From: Candidatus Saccharibacteria bacterium CG_4_10_14_0_2_um_filter_52_9
GTDB taxonomy: Bacteria; Actinomycetota; Acidimicrobiia; Acidimicrobiales; RAAP-2
Direction of reading: 5' to 3'
DNA length: 64,000 nucleotides
NCBI GenBank assembly: GCA_903970515.1
Contig: CAJCJA010000014.1
Span: 1-64,000 of the forward strand
Shown here in pieces: positions 58,623 through 64,000 of this stretch; the stretch's first letter is position 1, and each line of letters opens with the position of its first letter. The notes beneath the pieces were generated by a model. It searched no databases. It had not been told where the DNA came from and worked only from the letters and a program-made list of their open reading frames with translations. A program made the translations under genes and the position numbers.

Positions 58623-60276
58623 GGAGTCGATTCGAGTCACGTTCCTCGGAGGTCTCGGCGAAATTGGCCGCAACTGTCTCGCGCTGGAGCAAAACGGTCG
58701 CATCGTCGTGGTCGATGCCGGTCTCATGTTCCCCGAACCCACGATGTATGGCGTCGACATCATCCTGCCCGACTTTCGCTGGCTGATTGAGCGTCGCGAC
58801 CGCGTGGACGCAATCGTCTTAACCCACGGCCACGAGGACCACACCGGTGCTCTGCGCTACCTAGTGAAGGACGTCAATGTCCCCATCTACGGATCGGCGT
58901 TGACGCTCGGATTCGCTCGGCATCGTCTCAGCGAGGCGAAGGTCGCCCACGACCTCACCTTCATCGAGGTCGAGGACCACGAGCGGCGCCGCATCGGGCC
59001 CTTCGAAGTGGAGTTCATTCCGGTGACGCACTCGGTGCCCAGCGCGCACGCGCTCGCCTTTCACACGAGCGTCGGCATCGTACTTCACTCGGGCGATTTC
59101 AAACTCGACCTCACGCCAATCGATGGACGACGCACCGACGTCACCCGGCTCGCCGCGATTGGCGAGGAGGGTGTGGCGTTATTGCTGTGCGACTCGACCA
59201 ACGCCGAGGAACCCGGCTTCACCGCGTCGGAGCGTTCAGTCGGCGCCGCGCTGCGTCGGCTCTTCCTCGAGCGACCCGAGCGACGGATGGTGGTGGCGTG
59301 TTTCGCAAGCCATATCCACCGCGTCCAACAGATCATTAACGTGGCGCTCGAACAGAAGCGAAAAGTGGTGCTCATGGGTCGCTCCATGGAGGCGAACGTG
59401 AAGCTCGCGCGAAAGTTGAATTTGCTGCACGTGAGCACGGCTGACATCGTCGACGTCGAGAACATCGACCGCTATCCACCGGGGGAGATCTGCGTGATCT
59501 GCACCGGTAGCCAAGGCGAACCGCTCGCGGCACTTTCCAAATTGTCGCGCGGTGACGCGCGCTTCTTGAAGGTCGGGCCCGACGATACCGTGATCCTCAG
59601 CTCGCACCCGATCCCCGGTAATGAGTGGTCGGTGGGTCGCGTCATCGACGACTTGCATCGCGCCGGCACCGAAGTGATTCATTCGGGCAACGAGCCCGTG
59701 CACGCGTCGGGTCACGCGCGCCAAGGCGAACTTCGCACGTATCACCAATTGGTGCGGCCTCGTAATTTCGTGCCGGTGCACGGCGAGTACCGTCACATGG
59801 TCCATCACGCGGACCTGGCGATCTCGATGGGATTGAAGCACAATCACGTGCTCATCTGCGAAGACGGTGACCAGGTCGAAGTGAGTGCGACCGGGATTCG
59901 CCGTTCGGGCCAAGTGCCAGCGGGTTTTCACTACATCGACGGCAGTGCGGGCGATCTGGACGAGCGTCCGCTCGAGGAACGACGCATGCTCGCTGAGTAC
60001 GGTCTCTTGCTCATCACCGGGGGCATTGACAAGGACCGAGGCGTCATCGTCGAACCCGTTCGCGTGACCACGCGAGGATGGTTTGAGGGAGAGCGCGACT
60101 CTGAACTTTTGGAGCTCGTCACGTCCCAGGTGCGTGAGGCACTCGATAACTCGTTGCGCGACGGAGAACGCGATGCGTCGTCACTCAATAAAGTCGCTCA
60201 GCGAACGGCGGGCCGACTACTCGGCCAGAAATATCGTCGCCAGCCGGTCCTCCTCGCGGCTGTCTCGATCTTCTAG
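58615..60276 (+). CDS. rnj: Ribonuclease J
   Basis: 553 residues. It is a metallo-beta-lactamase/beta-CASP nuclease with the zinc motif His71-x-His73-x-Asp75-His76 (LTHGHEDHTGAL). The beta-CASP part has GRSMEANVKLARKL and a SSHPIPGNE segment. The C-terminal domain follows. It acts as a 5'-3' exo- and endonuclease in rRNA and mRNA processing. dapB-dapA-rnj-ftsK is a common actinobacterial order. Its stop overlaps the convergent gene's stop in CTAG (60273-60276). Confidence 0.95.
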   Translation: MAKESIRVTFLGGLGEIGRNCLALEQNGRIVVVDAGLMFPEPTMYGVDIILPDFRWLIERRDRVDAIVLTHGHEDHTGALRYLVKDVNVPIYGSALTLGFARHRLSEAKVAHDLTFIEVEDHERRRIGPFEVEFIPVTHSVPSAHALAFHTSVGIVLHSGDFKLDLTPIDGRRTDVTRLAAIGEEGVALLLCDSTNAEEPGFTASERSVGAALRRLFLERPERRMVVACFASHIHRVQQIINVALEQKRKVVLMGRSMEANVKLARKLNLLHVSTADIVDVENIDRYPPGEICVICTGSQGEPLAALSKLSRGDARFLKVGPDDTVILSSHPIPGNEWSVGRVIDDLHRAGTEVIHSGNEPVHASGHARQGELRTYHQLVRPRNFVPVHGEYRHMVHHADLAISMGLKHNHVLICEDGDQVEVSATGIRRSGQVPAGFHYIDGSAGDLDERPLEERRMLAEYGLLLITGGIDKDRGVIVEPVRVTTRGWFEGERDSELLELVTSQVREALDNSLRDGERDASSLNKVAQRTAGRLLGQKYRRQPVLLAAVSIF

Positions 60277-61040
60277 AGGTCCTTTTCGGGTTCGCCCATC
60301 TCGGCGTTGTGGCGTCCGGTCCTCCAGAACGCCTTGGTGCTGATCTGATGCTCGTCGAGCCCTCGGTCGCGCAAGGCGACCTCGATCGCCCTCATGACGT
60401 GAAATTCGCCGAACACGTAGGCGTGACCCACGTCGGGCGGAAGGGCGAAGGCGGACAATCCGTCGAGCAGGCCTGACGCGTCGTCGTGAGGGCGCGACGT
60501 GCGATCCACGAAGATGCCGGTCACGCCGAGGCCCTCGTCAAATGGTGCGGTGAGCGCGTCGTCCATCGTCGCCACTTCGACAATAAATATGGCGCGCCCG
60601 GGCGTTTCGATGCTTTGGGCCATTCGATAGAACGCCGCCAGTCCCGACGTATCACCAACAAAGAGGTGCCAGTCCGCGAGAGGGTCGAGGGTGATCTTCC
60701 CCCGTGGCCCGACGACGTCGACGAGGTCACCCGTGCGCGCGCTCGACGCCCAGGTCGAGCCCGGCCCCTCGTGCGACGTGACGATCCAGAGTGCAAAGGA
60801 CTCGCTCGTTTCGTCGACGCGGCGCACGCTGTAGCGGCGACGGACGTACCTGCCCTTGGCGTCAACCACGCGGATCATGACGTCGCTTCCGGGCGGTCCG
60901 ACGAGGTGGTGATCACCCTTGATGATGACTTCGGTAATGGACGGGCTCAGACGCGTTGTCGAGAGGATTGTCGCGAGTTCCGCGTGGGCGTTGAGTCGTG
61001 CGGCCAGTTCGATCGATGATTGGTCGGGTCCGCTTGGCAC
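60273..61040 (-). CDS. Siderophore-interacting protein-type FAD flavoprotein
   Basis: 255 residues. An N-terminal FAD-binding barrel has RRRYSVRRVDE (~68-78) and HEGPGSTWASSARTGDLVDVVGPRG. A C-terminal SIP NAD(P)H-binding domain has FVGDTSGLAAFYRM and YVFGEFHVMRAI. ViuB-like proteins reduce ferric siderophores to release iron. TAGGCT (minus strand, 61047-61052) lies exactly 6 nt before GTG 61040. It shares the upstream region with ftsK, where a palindrome is found. Confidence 0.88.
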   Translation of the reverse strand: MPSGPDQSSIELAARLNAHAELATILSTTRLSPSITEVIIKGDHHLVGPPGSDVMIRVVDAKGRYVRRRYSVRRVDETSESFALWIVTSHEGPGSTWASSARTGDLVDVVGPRGKITLDPLADWHLFVGDTSGLAAFYRMAQSIETPGRAIFIVEVATMDDALTAPFDEGLGVTGIFVDRTSRPHDDASGLLDGLSAFALPPDVGHAYVFGEFHVMRAIEVALRDRGLDEHQISTKAFWRTGRHNAEMGEPEKDL

Positions 61041-61069
61041 CGTGTAAGCCTACGGGATTGGCACCGAAA

Positions 61070-61085
61070 CCGAACTCATGTTCGG
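61070..61085. promoter_or_regulatory. LexA/SOS-like box between the SIP gene and ftsK
   Basis: CCGAAC-TCAT-GTTCGG is a perfect inverted repeat with the core CGAAC-N4-GTTCG, the form of the Gram-positive/actinobacterial SOS box. Its right end touches TAAGTT (61086-61091), a candidate -10 box of ftsK. It also lies 30 nt from the start of the divergent flavoprotein gene. LexA control of ftsK is known in E. coli; here it is inferred. Confidence 0.6.
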
Positions 61086-61093
61086 TAAGTTTG

Positions 61094-63448
61094 ATGGTTG
61101 TGAGTCCTGCTCAGCATCAAAAGAAGTCGAACCGAACATCGGCGAGGCGCGCGCCGGCGAAGAGCGACGCCTCAAGCGCGCCACCAAGTCTCTGGTCGCG
61201 CCACGAGAGAGATATCTGGATCGTCGTGCTCGTCGTTGCCGGGCTGTTCTGCACGCTCGCCGACTTCAAGGCGCTGGGTCCAGCCGGGCGCGTCGTCCTC
61301 GACGCACTCAAAGTGGCGATTGGTATTAGTCGATGGTTCTTACCGGTCATCCTTTTGGTAACGGCGGTGGCGTTGGTGTGGGGGAAATTGGCGGCGGACC
61401 GCGCGCGCTTCGCGTGGGGCATAGGCCTTTGCCTCGTGGGCATCTCGGGACTCGGTCACCTAGCGGGTGGTCGGCCCGGTTACCACGCGGGCACGAGTGC
61501 GCTCGGGCACGCGGGCGGATGGCTTGGTGTCATCGTCGGTGGGGGTCTCTATCGCACGATTGGGCTCGGGGGCGCCCTCGTGGTGTTGATCGCGGTGTTG
61601 GTCGTCGCGGCAATGGTGATCACGGGATTCGGACTGCGAGCGCTGGGCGCGGGACTGGTGCGAATGCTCCGCGCGCTCGGCCGATTTGTGGCGCACTGGT
61701 GGTCCGCGCGACCGAGGAGCAACGACGACTACGCCGACGAAGTCACGAGCGACGCCCAAGCCCCGCCAGCGCCCGCGCTCATCTCGCGGTTCGACGAGGT
61801 CCCGCTACCCGAATCAGTCGACGTTGACGAGGAGGACGATGAGGTGAGCCACGATTACGTGGGCGATTTTGTCGAACCGGAGCCCGTTGACGACGTCGAT
61901 GATCCTCCGGCATCACGGCGCCAGGTGATCGTGAGTGACTGGGAGCTGCCTCCTTTGTCGCTCCTACAGCGCACGAAGGAACAACGACAAGACCGGGCCG
62001 CCGTCGATGCGTCGGGCGAACAACTGGTTGAAGCGCTCGCGGCTCACGGTGTCGAGACCACGCTGGTGGGCTACACGGTTGGGCCGACCGTCACTCGCTA
62101 CGAGCTCGAACTTGGTCCAGGCGTCAAGGTCGCGCGTGTCACGTCACTGAATAAGGACATCGCCTACGCAATGGCGTCACCCGACGTACGAATCTTGGCG
62201 CCGATTCCCGGACGTTCGGCGATCGGCGTCGAGGTGCCCAATCGACAACGCACGCTGGTGGCGCTCGGTGACCTCCTCGCGTCCGACGAGGCACTGGTAG
62301 CGAACCACCCGCTTGACGTGCCCATTGGTCGCGACATCGCCGGGCGCACCGTCGTGGTCAATCTCGGTGAGATGCCTCACGTGCTGATCTCGGGCGCGAC
62401 GGGTGCGGGAAAGAGTTCGTGCATTAACTCGTTGATCACGTCGCTCGTAATGCGGAGCACGCCCGAGCAAGTGCGACTTCTGCTCGTCGATCCAAAGCGT
62501 GTCGAGATGGGTCAATACAATGATCTTCCTCATCTCTTGGCTCCCGTGGTCGTCGATCCAAAGAAGGCCGCCAATATTCTCAACTGGGCCGTCAAGGAGA
62601 TGGAACGGCGTTATGACCTCCTCGCCGAAAGCGGCGCGCGTGACATCACGAGCTACCAGCAAATGATTGCGCGAGGAGACGTACCAGCACCTTCCGACTC
62701 GCGTCACGACGTCGCCGACGCATTGCAGCGAGCGGTCGGGTTGGAAAGCGAGCTCGACATCGCGGGACCTGAGCAGCTTTCGTACATAGTCATCGTCGTC
62801 GATGAGCTCAACGACTTGATGATGGTCGCGGCACGTGACGTGGAAGAGTCTGTCGTGCGCATTGCGCAGATGGCTCGGGCGGTGGGTATCCACCTCGTGC
62901 TCGCGACGCAGCGCCCGAGCGTGGACGTCATCACTGGTGTCATCAAGGCGAACGTGCCAAGTCGGATGGCCTTCGCCGTCTCGTCGCTCGCGGACAGTCG
63001 CGTCATCTTGGACCAGGCCGGTGCTGAACGGTTGATTGGAAAAGGTGACATGTTGCTCGTCACCGCGTCGAGCAACATCGCCCGACGACTGCAATCACCG
63101 TGGGTCTCCGAAGAGGAAGTTCGTCGCGTTGTTGAATACTGGCGCGCGCAAGGTGGTCGTCCCGAGTCGGTCATCGCCCTCGATGTCACGTACATTCGAT
63201 CTTCGGTATCGATGAATGGAAGCGACGATGACGACGACGAGATCCTTCGCCAAGCGCGAGAACTCGTGATCAAGAACCAGTCGGGATCGACGTCGATGCT
63301 GCAGCGCAAATTGCGAATCGGCTTCGCTCGAGCGGGGCGTATAATGGACCAACTCGAAGAGGAAGGCGTGGTCGCCGCTGGCGATGGTTCAAAAGCTCGA
63401 AAGGTGTTAATTCCACCCGACGACTACGATCAGCGGTCTTCTCTCTAG
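61094..63448 (+). CDS. ftsK: FtsK/SpoIIIE DNA translocase
   Basis: 784 residues. An N-terminal membrane domain of four segments (about 45-195) is followed by an acidic linker, and the alpha domain VETTLVGYTVGPTVTRYELE. The RecA-like motor has Walker A GATGAGKS (434-441) and Walker B YIVIVVDELNDLM. A gamma winged helix (RIGFARAGRIMDQLEEEGVV) ends the chain. It pumps chromosome ends through the septum and activates XerCD at dif. ATG 61094 or GTG 61100 is the likely start; the open frame back to 60998 runs through the divergent promoter. Confidence 0.94.
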   Translation: MVVSPAQHQKKSNRTSARRAPAKSDASSAPPSLWSRHERDIWIVVLVVAGLFCTLADFKALGPAGRVVLDALKVAIGISRWFLPVILLVTAVALVWGKLAADRARFAWGIGLCLVGISGLGHLAGGRPGYHAGTSALGHAGGWLGVIVGGGLYRTIGLGGALVVLIAVLVVAAMVITGFGLRALGAGLVRMLRALGRFVAHWWSARPRSNDDYADEVTSDAQAPPAPALISRFDEVPLPESVDVDEEDDEVSHDYVGDFVEPEPVDDVDDPPASRRQVIVSDWELPPLSLLQRTKEQRQDRAAVDASGEQLVEALAAHGVETTLVGYTVGPTVTRYELELGPGVKVARVTSLNKDIAYAMASPDVRILAPIPGRSAIGVEVPNRQRTLVALGDLLASDEALVANHPLDVPIGRDIAGRTVVVNLGEMPHVLISGATGAGKSSCINSLITSLVMRSTPEQVRLLLVDPKRVEMGQYNDLPHLLAPVVVDPKKAANILNWAVKEMERRYDLLAESGARDITSYQQMIARGDVPAPSDSRHDVADALQRAVGLESELDIAGPEQLSYIVIVVDELNDLMMVAARDVEESVVRIAQMARAVGIHLVLATQRPSVDVITGVIKANVPSRMAFAVSSLADSRVILDQAGAERLIGKGDMLLVTASSNIARRLQSPWVSEEEVRRVVEYWRAQGGRPESVIALDVTYIRSSVSMNGSDDDDDEILRQARELVIKNQSGSTSMLQRKLRIGFARAGRIMDQLEEEGVVAAGDGSKARKVLIPPDDYDQRSSL

Positions 63449-63451
63449 TCA

Positions 63452-64000
63452 GTGTCGTCAGATCGCTTCTCACAACCCGTTTCGCGCGGACTCTTTTTTC
63501 GGCTCTTGGCGCTCGTCCTCGGGGCCGTACTAGCCCTCGGAGTGATCGTGGTGATGCAGGAGCCGTTGTTGCATGAGCGTGCGAACGTCGAGGTCAACGT
63601 CTCATCCCTCGATCGTCGTAACCCCGTGTCGCCGGTCGTTTGGCCCAGCGAGGGAAGCGCCGCGATCCTGATTCCCTCGCTCGATATCACACGCAGTTGG
63701 CACGACCGCGTCGTGCCCATTGCGAGCCTCACCAAGATGATGACGGCGTACGTGGTGTTACACAAGTTGCCACTGGTGAGCGGCTCGAGCGGGCCGTGCG
63801 TCACGATCAGCAACAGCGACGTCGAACAATACGACCTCATGAAGGAGTCGGACCAATCGAGCGTGCTCGTATCGAGTGGAGAATCACTCTGCGAGTTCGA
63901 TTTACTCAGTGGAATGTTGGTGCATTCGGCGAGCAACTACGCAGTCTTGCTCGCCGATATGGTCGCGGGCAACGTCACTCAGTTTGTCGCACTCATGAAT
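63452..64000 (+). CDS. D-alanyl-D-alanine carboxypeptidase (peptidase S11), 3' truncated by window edge
   Basis: 183 codons are visible from GTG 63452 to the window end. A cytoplasmic N-terminus and one hydrophobic segment (about 14-36, LFFRLLALVLGAVLALGVIV) act as signal or anchor. The penicilloyl-serine motif SLTK (in PIASLTKMMTAYVVL) and the second motif SASN (in VHSASNYAVLLADM) mark an S11 DacA-type enzyme that trims pentapeptide stems. The KTG motif lies beyond the window. It is 3 nt after the ftsK stop, so it is probably cotranscribed with ftsK. Confidence 0.85.
   Translation, partial: MSSDRFSQPVSRGLFFRLLALVLGAVLALGVIVVMQEPLLHERANVEVNVSSLDRRNPVSPVVWPSEGSAAILIPSLDITRSWHDRVVPIASLTKMMTAYVVLHKLPLVSGSSGPCVTISNSDVEQYDLMKESDQSSVLVSSGESLCEFDLLSGMLVHSASNYAVLLADMVAGNVTQFVALMN

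Follow-up and report, generated by a model that had tools for sequence, protein, structure and literature searches.

The LexA box of Escherichia coli reads CTGT-N8-ACAG. The ftsK gene of this bacterium is induced by DNA damage, under SOS control from the dinH promoter (review PMC4080785). Another type of box, CGAAC-N4-GTTCG, is given for LexA in Streptomyces venezuelae (PMC9380542) and Corynebacterium glutamicum (cited in PMC3989709), and the S. venezuelae motif is written as tCGAAC-N4-GNNCGa. In the body and reference list of the S. venezuelae article, ftsK is mentioned only in a reference title. The literature searched yielded no earlier report of a LexA box at ftsK for the Acidimicrobiia.

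We analysed a stretch of 64,000 nucleotides, hereafter the window, from the Acidimicrobiaceae-type metagenome-assembled genome of an uncultured actinobacterium. Immediately upstream of ftsK lies a palindrome that is very probably a LexA operator holding down ftsK together with its closely packed downstream genes (Table 1). We infer LexA binding, repression, induction and the purpose of this control from the sequence of the palindrome, its identity with the boxes of SOS genes, its conservation and its position. The proposed SOS control of ftsK is like that of E. coli dinH/ftsK, whereas the box is unrelated to the E. coli one and of the Gram-positive/actinobacterial type, the same type as in the LexA regulons of S. 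venezuelae and C. glutamicum.

Table 1. Features of the ftsK promoter region and its flanking genes (window positions)
Feature	Position	Strand	Basis and remarks
Predicted LexA operator (SOS box), CCGAAC-TCAT-GTTCGG, CCGAACTCATGTTCGG	61070..61085	.	Core 14-mer 61071-61084, a perfect CGAAC-N4-GTTCG match; promoter position and conservation in relatives
TAAGTT, putative ftsK promoter -10 element	61086..61091	+	Directly 3' of the box; TAAsTT near invariant, also in most box-less relatives
ftsK, 782 aa from GTG 61100	61100..63448	+	Four-transmembrane (4TM) region, FtsK alpha, motor and gamma domains (Pfam)
Divergent siderophore-interacting-protein-type flavoprotein (SIP + FAD_binding_9)	60273..61040	-	Pfam; start 30 nt from box core
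Candidate -10 (TAGGCT) for the divergent flavoprotein gene	61047..61052	-	Proposed from sequence and recurrence in relatives
D-alanyl-D-alanine carboxypeptidase (Peptidase_S11)	63452..64000, continues beyond window end	+	Pfam; 3 nt after ftsK

Direct reading of positions 61070-61091 bore out the preliminary description, which had noted a CGAAC-N4-GTTCG palindrome abutting TAAGTT. The inverted repeat reaches 18 bp (ACCGAAC-TCAT-GTTCGGT, 61069-61086), and the window contains no other perfect site. Under an order-2 Markov model, 0.30 perfect CGAACN4GTTCG sites are expected per 64 kb, or approximately 9 per genome, versus 16 observed in the genome of origin. Since this abundance is near chance, the motif by itself is weak evidence. 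A motif-only scan was set aside as uninformative: matches with at most one mismatch number 263 in the genome, and in the window they occur at chance level (10 observed versus 7.97 expected). Of the 16 perfect sites, 7 are found in SOS-type gene promoters, including that of ftsK, and 9 inside open reading frames, about the number expected by chance. The case for the ftsK box thus depends on its position and on its conservation among relatives, not on the motif alone.

In the same genome, perfect boxes precede lexA, recA, ruvCAB, imuA-imuB-dnaE2 and ftsK, and two precede a LysM gene beside nrdR. The half-sites at ftsK are identical to those of the lexA, recA, ruvC and imuA boxes. Because it is shared by the promoters of lexA, recA, ruvCAB and imuA-imuB-dnaE2, we take the motif to be the SOS box of this genome. 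The box follows the apparent -10 element at lexA, ruvC and imuA; at ftsK it is upstream of the -10, a difference that weighs against the LexA reading. The preliminary description had suggested scanning recA, lexA, dnaE2 and uvrA for the pattern, and had held that an unrelated box at recA or lexA would refute its proposal. Both of these genes carry the same perfect box, as does imuA-imuB-dnaE2, but no site with at most one mismatch was found within 400 bp upstream of uvrA. The broader proposal of that description, an E. coli-like SOS control of ftsK through a different LexA, is for the most part supported by the boxes at lexA, recA, ruvCAB and imuA-imuB-dnaE2 and by the presence of the ftsK box in most of the genus.

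The genome encodes one LexA protein above the family cut-off, with S24 and LexA_DNA_bind domains (Pfam). As judged by eye from an alignment, its Ala-Gly cleavage site is intact, as are the protease Ser and Lys residues. Thus, both a LexA of the autocleavable type and a RecA, the gene of which was recognised by its sequence (L018), are present.

The LysM gene with two perfect boxes upstream (L017:7967-8461, contig G000:C49) is near nrdR and lexA and codes for a 145-aa protein whose weak LysM match falls below the Pfam cut-off. Its product is a candidate SOS division inhibitor, and its location resembles that of mycobacterial ChiZ. It was suggested earlier that the carboxypeptidase encoded after ftsK could slow division, which is speculative; the LysM gene is the likelier SOS division brake.

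We collected the ftsK loci of relatives with FtsK identity of approximately 60% or more, oriented them and thinned them to 55 non-redundant loci. The box is found at the homologous position, directly before TAAsTT, in 32 of them (22 perfect and 10 with one mismatch); it is missing in 19 and degraded in 4. Among the 32 box-bearing loci the half-sites are nearly invariant, a conservation that is partly circular as these loci were selected for having the box; their fixed position and their 21 different 4-base spacers are free of this circularity. Its promoter location and its conservation by selection are marks of a LexA operator of the Gram-positive/actinobacterial type. In an FtsK protein tree built by a quick method, box-bearing rows are scattered over the genus from its basal to its terminal branches, and parsimony counts 8 changes; most likely the ancestor of the genus had the box and several clades have since lost it. 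Most box-less loci retain the -10 element and the start codon. Given the 19 loci without a box and the 4 with a degraded one, some clades can do without it, a point against the operator reading.

All 26 lexA promoters examined, from the genome of origin and the 25 relatives with a lexA match, harbour a perfect box 26-32 nt before the lexA start. The genus motif agrees with the S. venezuelae LexA motif (PMC9380542). The lexA box persists where the ftsK box is gone, for instance in genomes G007, G008, G021, G028, G030, G032 and G033. The ftsK spacers differ from the AACT usual in lexA boxes, so the affinity of the ftsK box may be lower. Repression at ftsK may then be weaker and partial, which would fit a gene that is also needed in normal division.

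Other features of the lexA loci were noted. A second, one-mismatch site is located 41 nt upstream of the main lexA box in 25 of the 26 promoters (L016, L134-L158), with the sequence CGAACAGATGTTTG in the genome of origin. Five genomes of the genus (G002, G012, G018, G022 and G024) gave no lexA match, and their assemblies may be incomplete; the ftsK box is also missing in G012, G018 and G022. In many relatives (G003, G005, G010, G017, G029 and others), lexA and ftsK are approximately 10-13 kb apart on one contig.

Outside the genus, 84 ftsK upstream regions (24 belonging to other families in the order and 60 sampled throughout the phylum, each scanned as far as 250 nt ahead of the open frame) contained no perfect box. 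Their 5 one-mismatch sites are at control level, with 2 and 6 for control motifs. Within this sample, an operator at the ftsK -10 thus appears to be particular to one genus. Six loci of other Acidimicrobiales (L062, L063, L064, L069, L078 and L088) have a perfect LexA-type box 100-280 nt upstream of ftsK. We rejected these as ftsK boxes, as they are near the start of a divergent radical-SAM (Rv2578c/SPL-like) gene, identified as such by Pfam in one of the six. They share with the genus a perfect LexA-type box upstream of ftsK, but unlike in the genus it is not at the ftsK -10.

The ftsK start is best placed at GTG 61100, 14 nt past the box, as relatives do not share the in-frame ATG 61094. The sequence TTGGCAC (window 61058-61064) recurs among the box-bearing relatives at approximately 22 bp before the -10, too distant for a usual -35. 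Behind ftsK come six genes separated by no more than about 10 nt: the carboxypeptidase gene, then thrB-like, EamA-like, miaB-like, miaA-like and dapF-like genes, the latter five named from sequence reading rather than family search. With such gaps, any induction of ftsK may spread to these six genes, barring internal promoters or terminators.

The main target of the operator might be the divergent flavoprotein gene, or it might serve the two genes alike, its nearness to ftsK being incidental. In 29 of the 32 box-bearing relatives, 29-36 nt separate the box from the flavoprotein start, and, given the candidate -10 TAGGCT, the box would cover the -35 region of that gene. In addition, the box is missing in one clade in which another gene separates the flavoprotein gene from ftsK (L030, L031, L032, L058 and L096), and in other Acidimicrobiales the ftsK-adjacent box belongs to a different divergent gene. 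Nevertheless, the box remains at ftsK in L028, L045 and L044, although the flavoprotein start lies at a distance of 143, 73 and 603 nt there and the flavoprotein gene has no second box of its own, and the box is gone from seven loci with the flavoprotein gene still close (L026, L029, L043, L046, L054, L059 and L125). The operator thus tracks ftsK, and we regard a primary or equal role at the flavoprotein gene as unlikely. Shared control of the divergent gene is possible. More specifically, we tentatively propose that one operator might act as a two-way switch, for ftsK and its downstream genes on one side and the flavoprotein gene on the other, having arisen in the genus independently of E. 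coli dinH.

It is highly improbable that the palindrome serves a dyad-binding regulator other than LexA. In favour of such a regulator, the ftsK spacers are unlike those of most lexA boxes, but each lexA promoter examined in the genus has these half-sites, which fit the S. venezuelae LexA motif (PMC9380542). Lastly, a chance palindrome without function, which the 16 perfect sites against approximately 9 expected might suggest, is hardly credible and is already contradicted by conservation, with its position kept in 32 of 55 relatives, conserved halves around a changing spacer, and half-sites identical to those of the SOS boxes of the genome.

With the palindrome as a LexA operator, a LexA dimer bound directly upstream of the ftsK -10 would impede RNA polymerase and keep ftsK and its downstream genes at a basal level. 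Upon DNA damage, RecA filaments would trigger LexA self-cleavage and release, and ftsK would rise alongside recA, ruvCAB, lexA and imuA-imuB-dnaE2. In other bacteria, the FtsK gamma domain reads chromosome polarity and activates XerCD. The extra FtsK would clear septum-trapped DNA and help XerCD resolve the chromosome dimers arising from recombinational repair. Joint induction with recA and ruvCAB would make sense, because the dimeric chromosomes formed by crossovers require FtsK.

The kind of element is a known one, to which the ftsK box adds a new instance. As the LexA boxes are unrelated, the recruitment of ftsK to the SOS response looks independent in this genus and in E. coli, which suggests at least two separate inventions of a rise of FtsK upon DNA damage. 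Such repeated invention argues that the coupling of FtsK to DNA damage is useful. The finding is of moderate significance, for this apparent convergence and for the natural losses of the box within one genus, which provide matched pairs for asking what the box gives the cell.
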